From Owenweeksia hongkongensis DSM 17368 (lineage in GTDB: Bacteria; Bacteroidota; Bacteroidia; Flavobacteriales; Schleiferiaceae): a DNA stretch of 64,000 bases. The stretch covers positions 1,116,001 through 1,180,000 of the forward strand of contig NC_016599.1 in NCBI RefSeq assembly GCF_000236705.1. The letters run 5' to 3'. How positions within the stretch are numbered: position 1 is the stretch's first letter; each line of letters opens with the position of its first letter. The notes beneath the pieces are model-generated. The model searched no databases and was not told where the DNA came from. It saw nothing but the letters and a program-made list of their open reading frames with translations. Position numbers and translations under genes: made by a program. Below are positions 55,185 to 59,931 of this stretch, one piece after another.

Positions 55185-55337
55185 TATATGTTTTTCGTAG
55201 AGAGTTTGTAAAAGTATTTTACAAGCCGCTAAGAAACATTTTTTTTATACAGTTTATTTTTTTTACCCTAGAAATGCAACGTTGTTCAACAACTTGGCTT
55301 GCCTCGTCATCGAGCCTCCCCACATCTTATAAACAAA

Positions 55338-55370
55338 AAAGGCTGTCTCAATCTTCTTGAAACAGCCTTT
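55338..55370 (-). terminator. terminator copy behind the rimO remnant
   Basis: AAAGGCTGT-C-TCAA / TTGA-A-ACAGCCTTT, loop TCTTC, with a T run on the minus strand. Nearly the same hairpin is behind the intact rimO at 58431-58463. Confidence 0.75.
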
Positions 55371-55393
55371 GCATTTGCAATGCTAAATATCAC

Positions 55394-55516
55394 TTAGTCC
55401 ACCACGTCACCGTAAAGGTCGTAGTCGGTAGCGCTTTCAATTTTTACATTGTAGAAATCACCTACCTTTAGGTAATCGGCATCGATAAGAACTTCATTGT
55501 CCACGTCTGGTGAGTC
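55394..55516 (-). pseudogene. 3' remnant of a rimO gene
   Basis: Forty codons plus stop that match the last 40 codons of the intact rimO (58630-58752) in the same orientation: DSPDVDNEVLIDADYLK, then V instead of A, then GDFYNVKIESATDYDLYG and VV with N/V to D changes. By my comparison 15 codons differ and 12 of these are synonymous. The fragment therefore diverged while it was part of a working gene. Upstream of it the similarity stops at 55517. It retains its own terminator. Confidence 0.9.
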
Positions 55517-55748
55517 AATACTATTTTACACAGAGCTTAACCTAATGGAAGCCCAAGTTGCAAATCTGCACCATCTGGATCCATATAATAAAGAAGCTCT
55601 CAGTATTGGGTGGGTCTGCTTTTAAAAAACAATATGCTTGGCAACACCATATACAGTAAATAGGCGTCTTGGGATAAATTAAGCATGGCAGGTAATAAAA
55701 TTTTGGATTTTAAATAATTTTAGTAATATAGCAGTCACAGAAAAGAAC
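55517..55748. other. gene-free, AT-rich region between the rimO remnant and the asnA leader
   Basis: No credible gene. On the minus strand 55548-55598 reads YYMDPDGADLQLGLPLG before a stop, which resembles the C-terminus of a glyoxalase/VOC protein, but upstream of it every frame is broken. It may be a decayed gene. Confidence 0.3.
55701..55731 (+). promoter_or_regulatory. possible promoter of the asnA leader transcript
   Basis: TTTTG at 55701-55705 and TAATATAG at 55724-55731, spaced 18 bp; the second is only a partial match to TAnnTTTG. The start would be near 55738, shortly before the first leader ATG. Confidence 0.3.
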
Positions 55749-55826
55749 ATGACCCAAAATCTAAATAATAATTTTTTCAATAATTCGAATAATAATTTAT
55801 TCGGAAATGGGAAGATTATGTTTTAG
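55749..55826 (+). CDS. Asn-rich leader peptide 1 of asnA
   Basis: Open frame of 25 codons, start ATG 55749, stop TAG 55824-55826. Ten codons are AAT (positions 4, 6-8, 11, 12, 14-16, 20); the peptide begins MTQNLNNNFFNNSNNN. The density of Asn codons upstream of an asparagine synthetase and a terminator is the hallmark of a control peptide for attenuation. The end of the frame overlaps the left arm of the antiterminator (GGAAGA 55810-55815 and TTTTAGAT 55821-55828). Confidence 0.75.
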   Translation: MTQNLNNNFFNNSNNNLFGNGKIMF

Positions 55827-55864
55827 ATATTAAAATACTTTAATACCAATCTAAAAGGTCTTCC
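55810..55864 (+). promoter_or_regulatory. antiterminator hairpin of attenuator 1
   Basis: GGAAGA (55810-55815) pairs with TCTTCC (55859-55864), TTTTAGAT (55821-55828) with ATCTAAAA (55849-55856), and ATTAAA (55829-55834) with TTTAAT (55839-55844). Twenty pairs in all, with small bulges. It uses bases 55853-55864 of the terminator's left arm, so the two structures exclude each other. Confidence 0.6.
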
Positions 55865-55888
55865 GAATATCGGGAGACCTTTTTTTTT
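55853..55888 (+). terminator. attenuator 1 terminator before asnA
   Basis: Fourteen-bp stem AAAAGGTCTTCCGA / TCGGGAGACCTTTT (one G-T pair), loop ATA, T run to 55888. It lies 27 nt after the stop of leader peptide 1 and about 130 nt before asnA. Confidence 0.85.
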
Positions 55889-55904
55889 GCTTTTTATTTT
55901 CAAA

Positions 55905-55973
55905 ATGAAACAAAGACAAACAAATAATAACAATAAATCACCCCCTGGACCAGACTTCAAATCACTTATATGA
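55905..55973 (+). CDS. Asn-rich leader peptide 2 of asnA
   Basis: Open frame of 22 codons, start ATG 55905, stop TGA 55971-55973. The peptide begins MKQRQTNNNNKSPPGP; four consecutive Asn codons (AAT AAT AAC AAT) lie at positions 7-10. It begins 16 nt after the T run of the first terminator. Its stop codon ends on the first base of the second terminator stem. Confidence 0.65.
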   Translation: MKQRQTNNNNKSPPGPDFKSLI

Positions 55974-55979
55974 GGCCTG
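55951..55979 (+). promoter_or_regulatory. possible antiterminator of attenuator 2
   Basis: CAGACTTCA (55951-55959) can pair with TGAGGCCTG (55971-55979), eight of nine positions including one G-T pair, loop of 11 bases. It would occupy the complete left arm of terminator 2. A ribosome held at the Asn codons would leave both strands free. Confidence 0.45.
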
Positions 55980-55999
55980 AATGACAGGCCTTTTTTTTT
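55973..55999 (+). terminator. attenuator 2 terminator before asnA
   Basis: AGGCCTG / CAGGCCT, seven-bp perfect stem, loop AATGA, then nine T. It ends 19 nt before the asnA ATG. Confidence 0.85.
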
Positions 56000-56018
56000 A
56001 CTCAAAATTTAAAAAACA

Positions 56019-57023
56019 ATGAAAAAAGAAATACTAAGAACAGAAGAAGCAATAAGCTTTACAAAAGAAATTTTTGAATCCGAATTAAAACAAAAACTGG
56101 CCTTAACAAAAATTTCTTCGCCCATAGCGATACTCAATGGAACCGGAATAAATGATGACCTAAACGGCATTGAACGCGTAGTCGCTTTTCCAATTAAGGC
56201 TTTATCTGATAAGGAGGCGGTTGTTGTAAACTCTTTATCAAAATGGAAAAGGTTAAGGTTACAAGAGTTGGATATTGAAGAGGGAAAAGGAATTATAACG
56301 GATATGAGAGCAATAAGGCCTGACGAAGATTATAGCTCCATCCATTCCATTTATGTAGACCAATGGGATTGGGAGAAAAGAATATCTAAAGAATCACGTA
56401 ACATCACATTTTTAAAGGAGGAAGTAACCAAAATATATAAAGCGCTAAGAGAAACTGAAATAAAGATTAGTGAAAAATATGACTCTATTCAACCAGTACT
56501 ACCTCAAAACATAAAATTTATACATACCGAAGAATTACTTCAAAAATATCCCACACTAACTCCTAAAGAGCGTGAATCAGAGATCACAAAGGAGTATGGT
56601 GCGGTATTTTTAATAGGAATTGGCGGAAACCTCAGTAGTGAAAAACCTCATGATGGGAGAGCTCCTGATTATGATGATTGGAGTTCTGAAAATGAAGATG
56701 GGTATTTCGGGTTAAATGGTGATATATTATTGTGGCATCCTATTTTAAAAGAAAGTTTTGAAATTTCTTCAATGGGAATCAGAGTTGATAAACTTGCTCT
56801 GTTAGATCAATTAAACAAAACTGGACAAAACGATAGGAAAGAACTTCAATTTCATAAGCTGTTACTAAATGAAATTCTCCCGGAAAGTATTGGAGGAGGA
56901 ATAGGACAGTCTCGAGTTTGCATGTTTATGTTAAGGAAAAAACATATTGGAGAAGTACAAGTGGGTATTTGGCCAGATTCCGTAAAAGAAAAATCTAAAG
57001 AAGAAGGAATTATGCTTTTGTGA
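56019..57023 (+). CDS. asnA: aspartate-ammonia ligase (asparagine synthetase A)
   Basis: Makes asparagine from aspartate, ammonia and ATP; related to class II aspartyl-tRNA synthetases. 334 residues, close to the E. coli length of 330. Clear motifs: VVNSLSKWKRLRLQEL, DMRAIRPDEDYSSIHSIYVDQWDWE, YGAVFLIGIGGNLSSEKPHD, GRAPDYDDWSSENEDGYFGLNGDILLW, SSMGIRVDKLALL and GGGIGQSRVCMFML. No glutamine amidotransferase domain, so ammonia is the nitrogen donor. Two tandem leader-peptide/terminator modules precede it. The gene is A-rich to the eye compared with neighbours and lies in a block bounded by rimO copies, so it may have been acquired. Confidence 0.96.
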   Translation: MKKEILRTEEAISFTKEIFESELKQKLALTKISSPIAILNGTGINDDLNGIERVVAFPIKALSDKEAVVVNSLSKWKRLRLQELDIEEGKGIITDMRAIRPDEDYSSIHSIYVDQWDWEKRISKESRNITFLKEEVTKIYKALRETEIKISEKYDSIQPVLPQNIKFIHTEELLQKYPTLTPKERESEITKEYGAVFLIGIGGNLSSEKPHDGRAPDYDDWSSENEDGYFGLNGDILLWHPILKESFEISSMGIRVDKLALLDQLNKTGQNDRKELQFHKLLLNEILPESIGGGIGQSRVCMFMLRKKHIGEVQVGIWPDSVKEKSKEEGIMLL

Positions 57024-58137: not shown

Positions 58138-58430
58138 ACCTTAAATTTTGGTATGCTAAAGTATGATTTAGGCTTTACAATACGATGATGACATTGGATG
58201 AAAGAAGTATGTAAAAAACAAAAATATTAGAGTAACTAGCTCGAGAATTTCGCGATAGCTCTAGATGTGTTCTCCAACGGGTCATTTTTATACGCTGGAA
58301 TCCTGAGTCTGGTTTTGCTTAAGGTACTAAGGCGTGCTGTAAACTTGTATTACACCTTTTCTATGGTAAACAGCTCCCACTGGTTCTGTTCCTATGTAAA
58401 AGTGCGCTGCCTCACATGTCCCAAAACAAA

Positions 58431-58463
58431 AAAGGCTGCCTCAATCCCCTTGAAGCAGCCTTT
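58431..58463 (-). terminator. terminator of rimO
   Basis: AAAGGCTGC-C-TCAA / TTGA-A-GCAGCCTTT, loop TCCCC, T-rich on the minus strand. It lies 166 nt past the rimO stop because a repeat element sits in between; the remnant copy has only 23 nt. Confidence 0.8.
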
Positions 58464-58492
58464 GTATTTTTATCTGATTAATCTTATATCGA

Positions 58493-58610
58493 TTGTCAGT
58501 CTGAGTGGTGGGAACCCCGAAAGCCTTCGGGGGTGCGGTGTATCGAAGACGATAAGTATTCCAACACCCTTCGATACGATTCTTCCTCCGTCAGAATCAC
58601 TCAGGATGAC
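58493..58610. repeat. dispersed palindromic element, copy 2
   Basis: Starts TTGTCAGTCTGAGTGG, runs through an inner CCCCGAAAGCCTTCGGGG hairpin to GCGGTGTATCGAAG, then continues CACCCTTCGATACGATTC to CACTCAGGATGACA. The same half-units as at 50621-50720 in exchanged order on the opposite strand. Confidence 0.7.
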
Positions 58611-58629
58611 ATTTGTTTTGTAATTGAAA

Positions 58630-59931
58630 TTAATTCACCACTACACCATAAAGATCATAATCCGTAGCGCTTTCAATTTTCACATTGTAAAAATCACCAG
58701 CTTTTAGGTAATCGGCATCTATCAACACTTCATTGTCCACATCTGGTGAGTCAAACTCGGTACGGCCTACAAAGAAGTTTCCTTCTTTGCGATCTATCAA
58801 CACGCGGAAAGTCTCCCCTACTTTTTCGGCATTTAGCTCTTCAGAAATAATTTGCTGCACGGCCATAATTTCTTCGGCACGCTGCTGCTTCACTTCTTCG
58901 GGTACATCGTCTTCTAAATTGTAAGCATGGGTATTTTCTTCGTGGCTGTAGGTAAAGCAACCTAGCCTTTCGAAGCGCATATCCTGCACCCATTGTTTCA
59001 GGGTTTGAAAGTCTTCTTCGGTTTCTCCCGGGTAACCGGTAATCAAAGTAGTACGGATAGCCATGCTTGGTACCTTCTCACGCATCAAGTCCAAAATGCG
59101 GTTGGTCTTAGCCATGGTAGTTCCTCTGCGCATAGATTTTAGAACAGGGTCGCTAATATGCTGCAATGGAATGTCAATGTAGTTACACACCTTTGGTTCT
59201 TCACGAATCACGTCAAGCACATCTTCCGGGAAACCCGCAGGAAAAAGGTAATGCAGACGAATCCACTCAATCCCTTCCACTTTTACAAGCTCTTTTAACA
59301 AATCTGCCAAAGCGCGTTTTTTATAAATATCAAGACCGTAATAGGTCAAATCCTGAGCGATAAGAATCAACTCACGAACACCTTTAGCGGCAAGCTTTTG
59401 TGCTTCCGTCACCAAGTCTTCGATAGGTGTAGACTTGTGTCCACCGCGCATCAAAGGAATAGCACAAAACGAACAAGGGCGATCACAACCTTCAGAAATC
59501 TTAATGTAGGCATAGTGCTGAGGCGTGGTCATCAAGCGCTCACCCACCAATTCTTTTTTATAATCTGCACGAAGTGCCTTTAGCAACTTTGGCAGTTCAC
59601 GGGTTCCGAAATACTGATCCACATCCGGAATTTCTTTTTCCAAATCTGGCTTGTAGCGCTCACTCAGGCAACCGGTCACAAATACTTTGTCCACCTCGCC
59701 TTGCTGCTTCTTATCTACAAAGTTCAAAATGGTGTCAATAGATTCTTGCTTGGCATTATCAATAAACCCGCAAGTATTGATTACCACAATATTTCCATCG
59801 TCTTCTTCATGGGCTACATTCTTGCCATTGGCCTGCAGTTGCCCCATCAGTATTTCAGAATCGTAAGTATTCTTGGAGCATCCAAGGGTTACGATGTTGA
59901 TTTTATTTTTCTTTAATGTTTTAGTGCGCAT
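58630..59931 (-). CDS. rimO: ribosomal protein S12 methylthiotransferase
   Basis: Radical SAM enzyme adding a methylthio group to Asp of ribosomal protein S12. 433 residues: N-terminal UPF0004 domain with three Cys (VTLGCSKNTYDSE, VINTCGFID, VTGCLSERY), radical SAM motif CDRPCSFCAIP, and a C-terminal TRAM domain (GETFRVLIDRKEGNFFVG to the end). The last 40 codons are duplicated at 55394-55516. The start MRTKTLKKNKINIV gives the usual family length. A 12-bp gap separates it from the preceding gene. Confidence 0.97.
   Translation of the reverse strand: MRTKTLKKNKINIVTLGCSKNTYDSEILMGQLQANGKNVAHEEDDGNIVVINTCGFIDNAKQESIDTILNFVDKKQQGEVDKVFVTGCLSERYKPDLEKEIPDVDQYFGTRELPKLLKALRADYKKELVGERLMTTPQHYAYIKISEGCDRPCSFCAIPLMRGGHKSTPIEDLVTEAQKLAAKGVRELILIAQDLTYYGLDIYKKRALADLLKELVKVEGIEWIRLHYLFPAGFPEDVLDVIREEPKVCNYIDIPLQHISDPVLKSMRRGTTMAKTNRILDLMREKVPSMAIRTTLITGYPGETEEDFQTLKQWVQDMRFERLGCFTYSHEENTHAYNLEDDVPEEVKQQRAEEIMAVQQIISEELNAEKVGETFRVLIDRKEGNFFVGRTEFDSPDVDNEVLIDADYLKAGDFYNVKIESATDYDLYGVVVN

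Follow-up and report, generated by a model that had tools for sequence, protein, structure and literature searches.

The window analyzed here is a 64,000 nt stretch of the genome of Owenweeksia hongkongensis DSM 17368 (contig NC_016599.1, positions 1,116,001 to 1,180,000), and positions below are those of the window unless stated otherwise. It contains asnA, coding for an aspartate--ammonia ligase, preceded on the same strand by two short Asn-rich reading frames, each followed by a hairpin with a run of nine T. The features of the region are as follows.

55702-55731, plus strand: promoter-like site, TTTG N18 TAATATAG, 17 nt 5' of leader 1
55749-55826, plus strand: leader peptide 1 (type 1), ATG frame, MTQNLNNNFFNNSNNNLFGNGKIMF, 25 codons, 10 of them Asn
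55853-55888, plus strand: intrinsic terminator 1, stem 55853-55883, 14 pairs, nine T
55905-55973, plus strand: leader peptide 2 (type 2), ATG frame, MKQRQTNNNNKSPPGPDFKSLI, 22 codons
55972-55999, plus strand: intrinsic terminator 2, stem 55972-55992, 8 pairs, nine T
56019-57023, plus strand: asnA, aspartate--ammonia ligase, 410.4 bits against TIGR00669 (cut-off 292.8), also PF03590

The frames, hairpins and T runs were located to the base where the preliminary description had placed them, with the same Asn counts (10 in the 25 codons of leader 1, a run of four in the 22 of leader 2), and the profile score bears out its identification of the downstream gene as an asparagine synthetase. The Asn run of leader 2 (NNNN) is followed by KSPPGP. 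In the list of open reading frames this frame also extends upstream to an in-frame TTG, and terminator 2 starts within the leader 2 stop codon, which ends at 55973. Judged by this layout, asnA is probably the gene under the control of both modules.

The leader region has a G+C content of 26% and intergenic terminators are common, and AAT runs of AT-rich intergenic DNA next to ordinary insulating terminators might thus resemble such modules by chance. The fold of 55740-56020 has an energy of -65.1 kcal/mol, as compared to -36.8 ± 3.7 kcal/mol in 200 shuffles (7.6 standard deviations better), and two terminators are present in the leader region where 0.2 are expected from shuffles. In 20,000 shuffled versions of 55700-56018 with dinucleotide content preserved, an ATG frame 8-40 amino acids long with at least eight Asn was obtained 20 times and one with NNNN 10 times; both kinds of leader together were never obtained.

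The gene is sporadic in this lineage, being present in one of the four genomes of the genus and one of the 88 of the family. As asnA is missing from the rest of the family (87 genomes), which thus offers no close relatives for alignment, the comparison was widened past the family. The gene was found in 8 of 395 genomes of an order sample, 23 of 395 of a class sample, 30 of 397 of a Flavobacteriaceae-type family (f3) and 50 of 120 of a Hymenobacter-type genus, that of genome G589; it is taken to be Hymenobacter because two of its upstream sequences match those of named Hymenobacter records exactly. A total of 190 asnA loci was collected, of which 186 were assessable; L008, L017, L180 and L188 were excluded, the match falling short of the gene start or less than 50 nt lying upstream, and L064 and L082 offered just 135 and 187 nt of upstream sequence. 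The asnA-like stretch of L008 contains two in-frame TAG codons and is matched over residues 89-312 only. A module was called where a terminator-like hairpin had a short Asn-dense frame ahead of it.

At least one Asn-rich leader with terminator was found at 75 of the 186 assessable loci. One of these, L096, is counted in this total and lies outside the statistics on controls, pairing, spacing, codons, Pro-Pro and the tree; of the remaining 74, 60 have one module alone, as does L096. Fourteen of the 186 loci have two modules; they belong to the genera coded g1, g37, g129, g141, g292, g308, g331 and g470, together with L015 (an uncultured Mesonia) and L024 (a Bacteroidales genome from a metagenome). 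All 50 asnA genes of the Hymenobacter-type genus, from the 120 genomes searched, are preceded by a module. The share of module-bearing loci was 3 of 8 in the order sample, 7 of 24 in the class sample (L096 included), 10 of 30 in family f3, and 7 of 80 and 3 of 5 in two wider lists; these lists overlap, some loci standing in two of them, and two pairs of upstream sequences are duplicates. The loci of Prevotella and Bacteroides, a large part of the sample, have no modules, and no Asn leader with terminator was found among 30 loci of asnB-family genes, 26 of which were viewed at the true gene start. In a tree of 143 asnA proteins most genes with a module stand together in one part, the others in two small groups apart from it; with 53 of its 139 inner branches open, the tree supports no claim of a single origin.

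Controls gave few calls under the same definition: one in 744 dinucleotide shuffles, one in 186 reverse strands, five in 1,096 stretches elsewhere in the asnA loci and five in 848 tiles of the window. Three of the five positive tiles are the asnA leader itself, and the other two are minus-strand tiles at 47.7-48.3 kb, apparently over coding sequence. Codon choice points in the same direction. The 48 leaders of the Hymenobacter type (L112-L159) contain 295 AAT and 89 AAC, whereas all 99 Asn codons in 29 asnA genes from that genus are AAC and none is AAT, so the Asn runs of the leaders are not a product of background composition. The preference for AAT could reflect slow decoding of this codon or a need for A+U-rich strands. 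Given the rarity of matches in shuffles of the same composition, these codon counts and the conservation, the chance explanation is scarcely credible.

The modules are of two types, of which 71 were assigned to type 1 and 17 to type 2, L095 being placed in type 2 only tentatively. Type 1 leaders have the consensus NNxFFNNSNNNLFRxRKA and type 2 leaders the consensus M....NNNNNN.SPP, the Asn runs being the constant part of the latter. Type 1 occurs alone in Hymenobacter-type genomes, G310 and G1203, and type 2 occurs alone in G1200 and G1004; L002 and L164 are one-module loci of type 1, and L168 and L171 of type 2. Since each type is found by itself, the tandem is not a simple duplication. The initial view of two successive modules thus stands as regards successive leader and terminator units, which are however of two different kinds and not copies of one another. 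The tandem arrangement itself recurs, at the 14 loci named above.

Within each module a strand at or near the end of the leader frame can pair with the 5' arm of the terminator, and in module 1 the same strand can also pair with the Asn codons. The pairing elements in the window are as follows.

55768-55819, plus strand: 1:2 helix of module 1, 55768-55779 with 55808-55819, in the minimum-energy fold
55810-55817, plus strand: antiterminator strand 2 of module 1, GGAAGATT, pairing with 55857-55864 (GGTCTTCC)
55951-55958, plus strand: antiterminator strand 2 of module 2, CAGACTTC, pairing with 55972-55979 (GAGGCCTG), one mismatch

Pairing, the ribosome model and promoters were tested on 33 of the 71 type 1 modules, 38 near-copies of the Hymenobacter type being omitted, and on all 17 of type 2. 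At p ≤ 0.05, the pairing of strand 2 with the terminator 5' arm surpassed that of dinucleotide shuffles in 31 of the 33 modules of type 1 and in 12 of the 17 of type 2, and it is absent or poor in the type 2 modules of L095, L165 and L170. Taken alone the window antiterminators are borderline, with p values of 0.050 (module 1) and 0.060 (module 2). Only one of 32 foreign terminators pairs equally well with strand 2 of window module 1, and one of 16 with that of module 2. The mean antiterminator energy is -14.4 kcal/mol with the own terminator as compared to -11.5 kcal/mol with terminators of other loci for type 1, and -10.8 kcal/mol as compared to -7.8 kcal/mol for type 2. Strands 2, 3 and 4 covary across taxa, the variants AGCCTTCC, AGCCTCTC, GCCTTTCT and AATCTTTC each being matched on both other strands. 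The comparison of upstream regions that had been proposed at the outset has thus shown that Asn-rich leaders, terminators and antiterminator pairing recur before asnA in diverse Bacteroidota, with compensatory changes.

An alignment of 30 Hymenobacter-type loci (A1), chosen for orientation and leaving out L137 as a duplicate of L009, has all 240 of its 240 antiterminator cells paired. Its RNAalifold consensus, obtained unprompted, comprises the terminator and a helix of the early Asn codons with strand 2. In this 1:2 helix 94.6% of the cells are paired and eight cells are changed on both sides, a figure that none of 500 shuffles reached; the number of pairs with two-sided change is unexceptional, being reached by 52 of 500 shuffles. 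For type 1, the 1:2 pairing was better than in shuffles at 19 of 33 loci, and for type 2 at 2 of 17. Module 1 therefore looks like a full classical attenuator as far as pairing potential goes, while a 1:2 helix in module 2 is not supported. No covariation was seen in a small hairpin considered for the last Asn codons of leader 1, which was rejected as unproven.

A stalled ribosome covers 12 nt ahead of the first base of the A site, and this figure was used for the spacing. As plain counts, the distance to strand 2 from the last Asn codon ahead of it is 12-21 nt for 61 of the 71 modules of type 1 and 12-19 nt for all 17 of type 2. Such spacing suits a ribosome stalled at the last Asn codon, whose front edge would lie just short of strand 2. 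The effect of ribosome position was modelled by partition-function folding with the ribosome footprint masked. Mean antiterminator formation in type 1 was 0.67 with no ribosome, 0.90 with the ribosome at the Asn codons and 0.15 at the stop codon, and in type 2 it was 0.42, 0.83 and 0.00, values that are partly circular since strand 2 had been picked as the best duplex. A stop codon precedes the terminator in 32 of the type 1 loci modelled, and five of these deviate, as a ribosome at the stop codon would leave strand 2 free (0.85-0.99). For module 1 of the window the model gave 0.02 with no ribosome, 0.76-0.81 at nine of the Asn codons, 0.00 at the tenth and 0.00 at the stop codon; for module 2 it gave 0.99 with no ribosome, so that an untranslated leader 2 would be read through, 0.99 at the Asn codons and 0.00 at the stop codon. 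The proposal that stalling at Asn codons allows read-through is consistent with spacing, alternative pairings and model, with the exception of the tenth Asn codon of leader 1, which lies 2 nt from strand 2, so that a ribosome stalled there would block the strand and not free it.

From these data we consider it highly probable that asnA is controlled by two ribosome-mediated transcription attenuators in series, both reading the supply of charged tRNA-Asn. This reading is built on frames, terminators, alternative pairings, spacing and conservation, all of them present in the sequences. Regulation by asparagine fits the logic of the gene, whose own product is the amino acid that abounds in the leaders. 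RNA polymerase would start 5' of leader 1, and a ribosome would translate leader 1 behind it. With no ribosome on module 1, the strand of the Asn codons would sequester strand 2 in the 1:2 helix. When Asn-tRNA is scarce, the ribosome would halt on the Asn codons of leader 1 and open this helix, and the freed strand 2 could pair with the 5' arm of terminator 1, allowing the polymerase to continue; when Asn-tRNA is ample, the ribosome would advance onto strand 2 and terminator 1 would form. Leader 2 would present a second decision with a simpler layout that lacks a conserved 1:2 helix, in which a ribosome on the Pro-Pro or the stop codon would cover strand 2. Only transcripts clearing both gates would reach asnA. 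Translation of the leaders, termination at the hairpins and the response to asparagine are in this scheme predicted steps, and any gain from having two gates, such as the steeper response or wider range suggested in the preliminary description, would be an additional expectation.

Transcription presumably starts upstream of leader 1. The promoter pattern of Bacteroidota consists of TTTG, a spacer of about 19 nt and TAnnTTTG. A promoter-like match lies 5-42 nt 5' of leader 1 in all 33 type 1 loci tested, with a mean score of 7.85 against 6.08, and each match outscores the average for mononucleotide shuffles of its locus. The site at 55702-55731 in the window is weak, with four of six positions in the second box and a score of 7.2, and a promoter-like site within leader 1 (55796-55824) scores 7.4. 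A start at the latter would bypass the first sensor, and it bears on the unlikely alternative that just one module is a working Asn sensor and the other terminator a relic or a constitutive damper. The frequency of one-module loci and the weaker antiterminators of type 2 modules would fit that alternative as well. It is opposed by the two-module loci, from eight coded genera plus L015 and L024, which keep intact frames and terminators of both types, and by the existence of one-module loci for both types, from which each module seems to be self-sufficient.

Uncharged tRNA-Asn might also be bound by the leader RNA directly, as in a T-box or a T-box-like element, and asparagine-specific T-boxes are described for Firmicutes in PMC2494555. 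That paper lists no T-boxes in seven genomes of Bacteroidetes and Chlorobi. At the gathering scores of Rfam 15 there was no match in the window, and in 12 relatives one tRNA gene was the only match; the 17 matches at weak scores include no T-box either. Conserved frames with several Asn codons are, moreover, foreign to T-boxes. A T-box identity was rejected for want of a covariance-model match at gathering or weak scores, and direct tRNA binding is considered very improbable.

With two attenuators in series as the preferred reading, the Pro codons set leader 2 apart. Of the 17 type 2 leaders, 11 carry Pro-Pro or Pro-Pro-Pro after the Asn run, a motif missing from all 71 of type 1 (Fisher p 3e-7, computed for the 17 and the thinned 33), and its Pro codons vary in their third position. 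With the codon following Pro-Pro in the A site, the footprint of a ribosome would begin anywhere from 6 nt ahead of the start of strand 2 to 1 nt beyond it, and would cover all of strand 2 in 10 of the 11 loci and part of it in one. At L169, L170 and L175, all of genus g308, the leader 2 frame has no stop codon ahead of the terminator and stays open across it, and the motif is PPPGG. The motif may act as a brake holding the ribosome in the off position. Tentatively, and with somewhat less than even confidence, we suggest that leader 2 may be a compact attenuator of a new kind, in which a Pro-Pro pause is the off position, covers the antiterminator strand and forces termination once the Asn run has been cleared. 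The brake would seem to replace the stop codon in the three loci of g308, and together with the classical gate it would form a two-stage Asn gate, conserved and spread with asnA across the Bacteroidota, with attenuation depending on EF-P.

The same motif could mean that leader 2 senses proline or the state of EF-P, instead of or besides asparagine, in the manner of the Pro-rich mgtP leader, which responds to proline; the tandem attenuators of mgtCBR, to which mgtP belongs, answer different signals according to PMC3641672. We regard this as rather improbable. A ribosome halted at Pro-Pro would cover strand 2, so that a shortage of proline should strengthen termination, and six type 2 leaders have no Pro-Pro, the constant part being the Asn runs.

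The closest homologues of the asnA gene found are those of family f3, L164 and L165, with 77% and 74% identity, and the comparison suggests that the gene may have been acquired horizontally together with its leader. The segment with asnA and lplA is flanked, at 55331-55518 and 58424-58754, by a 125-base duplicate of a rimO-like gene's 3' end (85% identical) and by a 46-base hairpin repeat (89%). The arrangement has the look of an insertion of this segment at the end of the rimO-like gene. Two genes of the asnB family occur elsewhere in the genome, at genome positions 3712477-3714039 (L217) and 3778597-3780282 (L195). Both score above the TIGR01536 cut-off and, over the matched stretches only, below those of PRK09431 and eps_aminotran_1; their best score is with an exopolysaccharide-type amidotransferase model, below its cut-off. 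Thus asnA need not be the only asparagine synthetase of the genome. In the three other genomes of the genus nothing of the asnB family scores above the TIGR01536 cut-off.

The Bacteroid-trp RNA is a leader of Bacteroidetes with Trp codons before trp genes; it differs in its amino acid, tryptophan, and has no Rfam match in the window. To our knowledge the textbook list of amino acids for leader-peptide attenuation omits asparagine, and we know of no attenuators in series for one amino acid. Classical attenuators of the trp, his, leu, thr, phe and ilv type share with the asnA leader a leader frame with cognate codons, the 1:2, 2:3 and 3:4 pairings and an intrinsic terminator before a biosynthetic gene. 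The asnA leader differs from them in the amino acid, the single-gene target and the two unlike modules in series, the second of which is compact and usually has Pro-Pro. It thus appears to be a conserved, asparagine-specific form of a known mechanism, arranged in tandem; what would be new is that the signal is asparagine, that two non-identical gates stand in series and that the second is compact, with Pro-Pro.

The open-access papers searched yielded no asparagine leader-peptide attenuator, and a comparative study of attenuation by Lopatovskaya and others might hold predictions for asparagine. In this respect the preliminary description, which knew of no asparagine case, agrees with the papers searched; leader-peptide attenuation itself had already been suggested for flavobacteria, from clues before amino acid operons of Flavobacterium psychrophilum (PMC9723704), in the main text of which asparagine and asn genes do not occur. 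That proposal concerns the same phylum and the same general mechanism. Leader-peptide-like short frames are mentioned for Bacteroides in PMC7366714. According to PMC2965389, leader peptides outside Proteobacteria and Actinobacteria were then known only from its own case in Firmicutes, and the passages considered from PMC1262725 contain no asparagine case. The leader RNA of Salmonella mgtCBR resembles that of asnA in its pair of leader frames, each coupled to an attenuator of its own, and no homology is claimed; its signals, as given in PMC3641672, are ATP and proline-charged tRNA and thus different, whereas in both asnA leaders the abundant codons are those for the amino acid made by one and the same gene. 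The Asn T-boxes of Firmicutes, as presented in PMC2494555, would share tRNA-Asn charging as the signal and have the same outcome, and differ by direct binding of tRNA to RNA without a leader peptide.

A family of such leaders before some forty percent of the assessed asnA loci would make the Bacteroidota, in which few such systems are understood in detail, a testing ground for leader-peptide attenuation. With natural loci having one module of either type and others having two, what a second gate for the same signal buys becomes testable. The Pro-Pro brake, if true, would tie attenuation to EF-P.
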